Below, piece after piece: positions 48,863-49,591 of a DNA stretch of 64,000 nt. The stretch is from Prochlorococcus sp. MIT 1223 (lineage in GTDB: Bacteria; Cyanobacteriota; Cyanobacteriia; PCC-6307; Cyanobiaceae): the NCBI RefSeq assembly GCF_034092465.1, contig NZ_CP139303.1, forward strand, positions 1,578,865-1,642,864, in the 5' to 3' direction. Positions within the stretch are counted from its first letter, which is position 1, and each line of letters begins with the position of its first letter. A program made the position numbers and the translations under genes. The notes beneath the pieces are model-generated. The model saw nothing but the letters and a program-made list of their open reading frames with translations. It was not told the DNA's origin and ran no database searches.

Positions 48863-49132
48863 ATGGCATCTCAAAAAAATGATGATAAGAAGTCAAGCAA
48901 AAGGAGGTCTGCTAAAGATAAATCCTTTGCTAATTCAGCAGATCAAGGACGAGAACAAGAGGTACTTTTAAATTTGCCAGCAGGCTTGAAATATAGAATG
49001 CCTGGTCAAAGGCAAAGAGTTATCGTTGGATCGATTGTTATAGCTTTAAATGTTCTTCTTGTTCTTAGTGTAATCCTTTATTTTTATAACCCTGCTTTTC
49101 AGGAATTTATCTATAACGTTGGCAGGGAATGA
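48863..49132 (+). CDS. conserved single-helix membrane protein (89 aa)
   Basis: The ATG at 48863 begins MASQKNDDKKSSKRRSAKDK, a very basic N-terminal tail; an in-frame TTG at 48845 is a weaker start. After the motif LPAGLKYRMPGQRQRVIVGS comes one membrane helix (IVIALNVLLVLSVILYFY) and a short end FQEFIYNVGRE. The LPAGLKYRMPGQRQR block looks conserved and could be an amphipathic interface. No function is known to me. A strong terminator follows 45 bases after the stop. Confidence 0.65.
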   Translation: MASQKNDDKKSSKRRSAKDKSFANSADQGREQEVLLNLPAGLKYRMPGQRQRVIVGSIVIALNVLLVLSVILYFYNPAFQEFIYNVGRE

Positions 49133-49177
49133 TTTATATCTGTTTTAGTGGATTTCTTTATAACTGAAATTAGACAA

Positions 49178-49207
49178 AAAAAAGCCCTGCCTAAGCAGGG
49201 CTTTTTT
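49178..49207 (+). terminator. strong rho-independent terminator
   Basis: A perfect GCCCTGC/GCAGGGC stem with a CTAA loop is flanked by A and T runs, so it can act on both strands. On the plus strand it closes the 48863 gene; on the minus strand it would close any transcript coming from 49.2-49.4 kb. Confidence 0.92.
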
Positions 49208-49432
49208 GAGTCAAACGGGCGTCTTTCCTAGTTTCGACTCCGCAGACTCAACTCCTCACAAATATATTATGAGTGCTTTTTTTGTTAAGCCCGCTAAGAA
49301 GAGGCAACTAACCTAACTGGCACAGTGACAGTTGAGGAGACTTCTTTGTTTTTTGATGAAGTTTCTATAATTTTTTCAATTTACCACTCCTAAGGTGGTT
49401 CTATGGATCACAAGTTACCGGACTAAGTTTTT
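49208..49432. ncRNA. candidate structured RNA locus (strand undecided)
   Basis: The region holds no protein gene but several paired elements. GAGTCAAAC (49208) can pair with GTTTCGACTC (to 49240) with one bulge. ACTCCTCACAA follows unpaired at 49251-49261, and a weak hairpin then runs into seven T (49277-49283). CTCCTCA at about 49252 can instead pair with TGAGGAG near 49333. The plus-strand layout, hairpin, ACUCCUCACA, hairpin and U-run, resembles the cyanobacterial small RNA Yfr1 (motif ACUCCUCACAC), but no promoter is evident for it. A minus-strand RNA ending at the terminator at 49178 is equally possible. Confidence 0.35.
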
Positions 49433-49591
49433 ATGTCTTCTATGCCTGAGAACAATCCAGTTTCAGATCATGATCCACTTCAGAGAAAAACCACTTTAAA
49501 ATGGGGAGCAGATGGAGAGCTTTCTGCTATTGATATGGCAAGAATTATTGCAAAACTAGATAACACTAGCCTAACTGAATGTGATTTATAG
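49433..49591 (+). CDS. small soluble hypothetical protein (52 aa)
   Basis: A 53-codon frame with an ATG at 49433 encodes MSSMPENNPVSDHDPLQRKT, LKWGADGELSAIDMARIIAK and LDNTSLTECDL. The second half forms one or two helices; no membrane segment is present. The WGADGELSAIDMARIIAKL block looks like a constrained small domain instead of random coding. It is short but has normal codon use and a plausible start. The function is unknown. Confidence 0.5.
   Translation: MSSMPENNPVSDHDPLQRKTTLKWGADGELSAIDMARIIAKLDNTSLTECDL

Follow-up and report, generated by a model that had tools for sequence, protein, structure and literature searches.

A minus-strand copy of the small RNA gene yfr2 (Cyano-1) at a Yfr1-like locus of Prochlorococcus sp. 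MIT 1223

Introduction

Yfr1 and Yfr2 are small RNAs with complementary motifs. Pairing between ACUCCUCACAC of Yfr1 and the 5′ motif of Yfr2, RNAs of 87-95 nt (PMC1242208), was predicted from sequence (PMC2518516), and the two were found to interact in Prochlorococcus MED4 (PMC6778093). MED4 accumulates Yfr2 as a small RNA that binds both Yfr1 and Yfr10; in an E. coli reporter, Yfr2 relieves the repression by Yfr1 (PMC6778093). The gap between guaB and trxA is the canonical position of Yfr1 in most genomes, and the promoters of yfr2 genes are bound by the GntR protein PMM1637 at the element CGRE1, which is present nowhere else in MED4 (PMC6778093). The Yfr10 family also has the Yfr1 motif, there placed in a hairpin loop.

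Because Yfr1 and Yfr2 are complementary, either one looks like the other when the opposite strand is read. Here we describe such a case in a window of 64,000 nucleotides, the whole stretch of DNA that was analysed, from Prochlorococcus sp. MIT 1223; positions are those of the window unless given with a contig (C1). A first-pass annotation, made from the sequence alone, had compared an intergenic region of this window with Yfr1 on the plus strand, and had considered an RNA on the minus strand as the alternative.

Results

When the window was scanned with the Rfam covariance models, the only match above gathering score at the locus was to RF01701 (Cyano-1). It lies on the minus strand (49265-49203), spans the full model (1-69) and reaches 52.5 bits (gathering score 41), with an E value of 2e-8 for the genome. 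Further matches at E ≤10, such as OrzO-P and STnc370, were far under gathering, lay mostly over the terminator and were rejected. We take Cyano-1 to be the Rfam name of the Yfr2 family, in keeping with the published motif and loop of Yfr2-5 (PMC1242208, PMC2518516). We conclude with high confidence that the locus is a yfr2 gene on the minus strand, one of three copies in the genome, with a promoter that is probably switched through a palindrome, a transcript predicted to end at an intrinsic terminator, and an RNA that would pair with Yfr1 (Table 1). The family of this small regulatory RNA was already known, and the copy, not labelled before, is an ordinary member of it. The analysis established the family match, the structure with its covariation, the complementarity of the motifs, the association with the palindrome and the synteny.

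Table 1 Features of the yfr2 locus and its neighbourhood (window positions).
Feature	Position	Strand	Evidence or remark
yfr2 (Cyano-1) small RNA gene	49176..49262	-	predicted transcript ~85 nt; RF01701 match, fold z -4.27
Yfr2 5′ motif UGUGAGGAGU	49251..49260	-	exact complement of the Yfr1 ACUCCUCACA core
Yfr2 stem-loop, loop GAAACUAGGAAA	49207..49250	-	formed in both MFE and centroid fold
Intrinsic terminator AAAAAAGCCCUGC-UUAG-GCAGGGCUUUUUUUU	49176..49206	-	fold, sequence; kept in syntenic copies
Probable -10 box CATAAT of the yfr2 promoter	49266..49271	-	ATAAT invariant in 6 aligned syntenic copies
Palindrome AACTGGCACAGTGACAGTT	49315..49333	.	candidate yfr2 operator
Divergent 52-aa ORF, conserved neighbour	49433..49591	+	tblastn 56-74% identity beside syntenic yfr2 copies
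Converging 89-aa ORF, conserved neighbour	48863..49132	+	synteny; ends at the probably shared terminator

The minus strand at 49263-49176 folds with -36.8 kcal/mol, and none of 200 shuffled sequences folded as well, whereas the Yfr1-like stretch of the plus strand gave a z of -1.29 and was equalled by 16 of 200 shuffles, which is not significant. All six inner pairs of the loop stem are formed in every one of 16 family copies and show 13 two-sided changes; 0 of 500 shuffles scored as high and no slid register came near. This count covers the inner helix only, and the outer stem was lost by RNAalifold on alignment A2 because of alignment gaps; the copy at L059 was left out of the alignment of copies. 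Within the 5′ motif, GUGAGGAG is invariant in the 16 aligned copies and near-invariant in 34.

Besides its score, the studied copy shares with Yfr2/Cyano-1 the UGUGAGGAGU at the 5′ end, a hairpin with a GAAACnAGGAAA loop, the terminator, a predicted length of about 85-90 nt and the presence of several copies per genome. The 5′ motif UGUGAGGAG of the family is single-stranded and complementary to Yfr1 at this locus, and the loop GAAACUAGGAAA is close to the GGAAACA-repeat-type loop of the family. In contrast to the family, the pairs closing the loop are GUC/GAC instead of GUG/CAC, a variant common to the syntenic orthologues of this copy, and the stem is shorter than in the Rfam consensus. The 5′ end was placed by means of the -10 box and the family lengths. 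A mechanical scan found one promoter-like site nearby on the minus strand against 0.7 expected by chance, and CATAAT lacks a good -35 hexamer at the usual distance. The terminator consists of a 12-pair hairpin followed by a U-run. As it carries a T-run on the plus strand too, it is probably common to yfr2 and the converging 89-aa ORF.

On the plus strand, the elements listed by the first-pass annotation are all present, namely the motif ACTCCTCACAA (49251-49261), the hairpin at 49207-49250, a T7 run near 49277-49283 and the terminator directly upstream (49179-49206). These features are real but belong to the minus strand, which alone has a significant fold and a covariance match. A Yfr1 gene or a Yfr1-like decoy on the plus strand, in which a bulged hairpin is followed by ACTCCTCACAA in single-stranded form, then by a weak hairpin and finally by a T-run, would account for the order of the elements, which resembles Yfr1, and for the 10 of 11 matching motif bases. 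We regard it as highly improbable, since a search of the locus with the Yfr1 model RF01116 up to E 10 gave no match, the fold of the plus strand lacks significance, the terminator abuts the 5′ side, and the genome already has a canonical Yfr1 between guaB and trxA. Moreover, the weak hairpin (CTCA/TGAG) and the T-run are not conserved in the five syntenic orthologues; the conserved element at their site is the ATAAT box of the minus-strand gene. The alignment of six syntenic copies, made up of the studied one and these five orthologues, shows the palindrome, this box, the motif GUGAGGAGU, the hairpin GUCGAAACnAGGAAAGAC and the terminator as conserved blocks. The alternative, an RNA on the minus strand that runs into this same terminator, was right in strand and end, whereas its length of about 150-200 nt has to be replaced by a predicted ~85 nt and its identity is Yfr2.

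The likeness to Yfr1 is explained by an antisense reading, because the motif of Yfr2 is complementary to that of Yfr1: the plus-strand ACTCCTCACA is the exact reverse complement of the conserved Yfr2 UGUGAGGAGU. Apart from this shared motif, the locus differs from Yfr1 in strand, in covariance-model match and in genomic context. A clear Yfr1 at another locus, named beforehand as an argument against the plus-strand reading, does exist at C1:541994-542050 (RF01116, 59.9 bits), between ORFs that we named IMP-dehydrogenase-like (guaB) and thioredoxin-like (trxA) by inspection of their sequences. With the motif of this Yfr1, the motif of the studied locus forms a perfect 10-bp duplex of -16.6 kcal/mol, a modest margin over shuffled motifs (5% tail -14.2, best shuffle -20.0 kcal/mol). 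The 1.8-Mb genome contains six copies of the bare 10-mer ACTCCTCACA and equally many of its reversed sequence, so that the motif alone is at chance level. The six sites are Yfr1 (542014), the antisense strands of two yfr2 copies (1142139 and the studied locus), a Yfr10-like hairpin (1337293, L086) and two positions inside ORFs (417370; 1619267, i.e. 40403 of the window).

The palindrome AACTGNCACNGTGNCAGTT shares one base at its end with the TGAGGAG at 49333-49339, which the first-pass annotation had correctly pointed out as a sequence. No further copy of the palindrome was found in the genome at ≤2 mismatches. Exact matches are present in 10 of 61 genomes of the family, and all 10 adjoin yfr2, as do 12 of 15 matches at ≤1 mismatch; the reversed pattern, used as a control, gave a single match. 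GAGGAG lies 56-58 bp away in nine of the ten exact matches and 22-23 bp away in two others. The genome encodes a single GntR-domain protein (C1:1284337-1284525), and we infer that the palindrome is probably the published GntR site CGRE1. Its arms (also in L073, L074 and L079) vary in sequence among genomes and keep their self-complementarity, which in G017 is perfect over 26 bp. As the arms differ between lineages and yet stay self-complementary well past the core, the palindrome might be more than a protein-binding site: as a cruciform, or as a hairpin in a transcript, it could link yfr2 with the divergent 52-aa gene, although we consider this unlikely.

Cyano-1 is present in 57 of the 61 family genomes. 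The three copies of the studied genome score 61.8, 52.5 and 48.0 bits with RF01701, the studied one ranking in the middle. Since the other two (L001, L003) are without the palindrome, the copies are probably regulated differently. The order 89-aa ORF, converging yfr2, palindrome and 80-aa ORF is also found in G001, G011, G017, G063 and G074; the 52-aa ORF was detected in three of these five (G017, G063, G074). It matched no Pfam family, and a family search with the 89-aa ORF gave none that was convincing. In ten Prochlorococcus genomes having the 89-aa neighbour, no yfr2 was found beside it by model R1 or by motif, in agreement with the reported occurrence of yfr2 genes at unconserved loci. 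This absence, together with the two other yfr2 copies in the genome, would suit a degenerate, untranscribed relic of yfr2. However, orthologues from several genera conserve the motif, the loop, the covarying stem, the -10 box, the terminator and the palindrome, and each of these is intact at the studied locus; a relic therefore has very little probability.

Discussion

For the functional gene we adopt transcription, titration and GntR control from the literature. We propose that yfr2 is transcribed on the minus strand from the promoter with the CATAAT box, that a regulator bound to the palindrome probably switches this promoter, and that the transcript ends at the terminator. In the RNA of about 85 nt, the 5′ end would present UGUGAGGAGU and the hairpin loop GAAACUAGGAAA. 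The 5′ motif would pair with ACUCCUCACAC of Yfr1 and of the Yfr10-like RNA and, as the published work suggests, titrate them off their mRNA targets; Yfr2 may also pair with mRNAs directly.

A Yfr10 candidate of this genome lies away from the studied locus, at L086 485-545 (~G000:C1:1337284-1337344, +), where ACTCCTCACAC is found in the loop of a TGGACA/TGTCCA stem that is followed by a second hairpin. At the studied locus itself, we considered and rejected CTCCTCAAC (49332-49340, minus strand) as part of a Yfr10, since this site overlaps the palindrome and its fold is not significant (z 0.57). A Yfr10-like arrangement is also present just upstream of yfr2 copies in G001 (L008), G002 (L007) and G022 (L059). 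A small inverted repeat, CCACTCCTAAGGTGG, is located at 49384-49398, within what is probably the 5′ leader of the 52-aa ORF.
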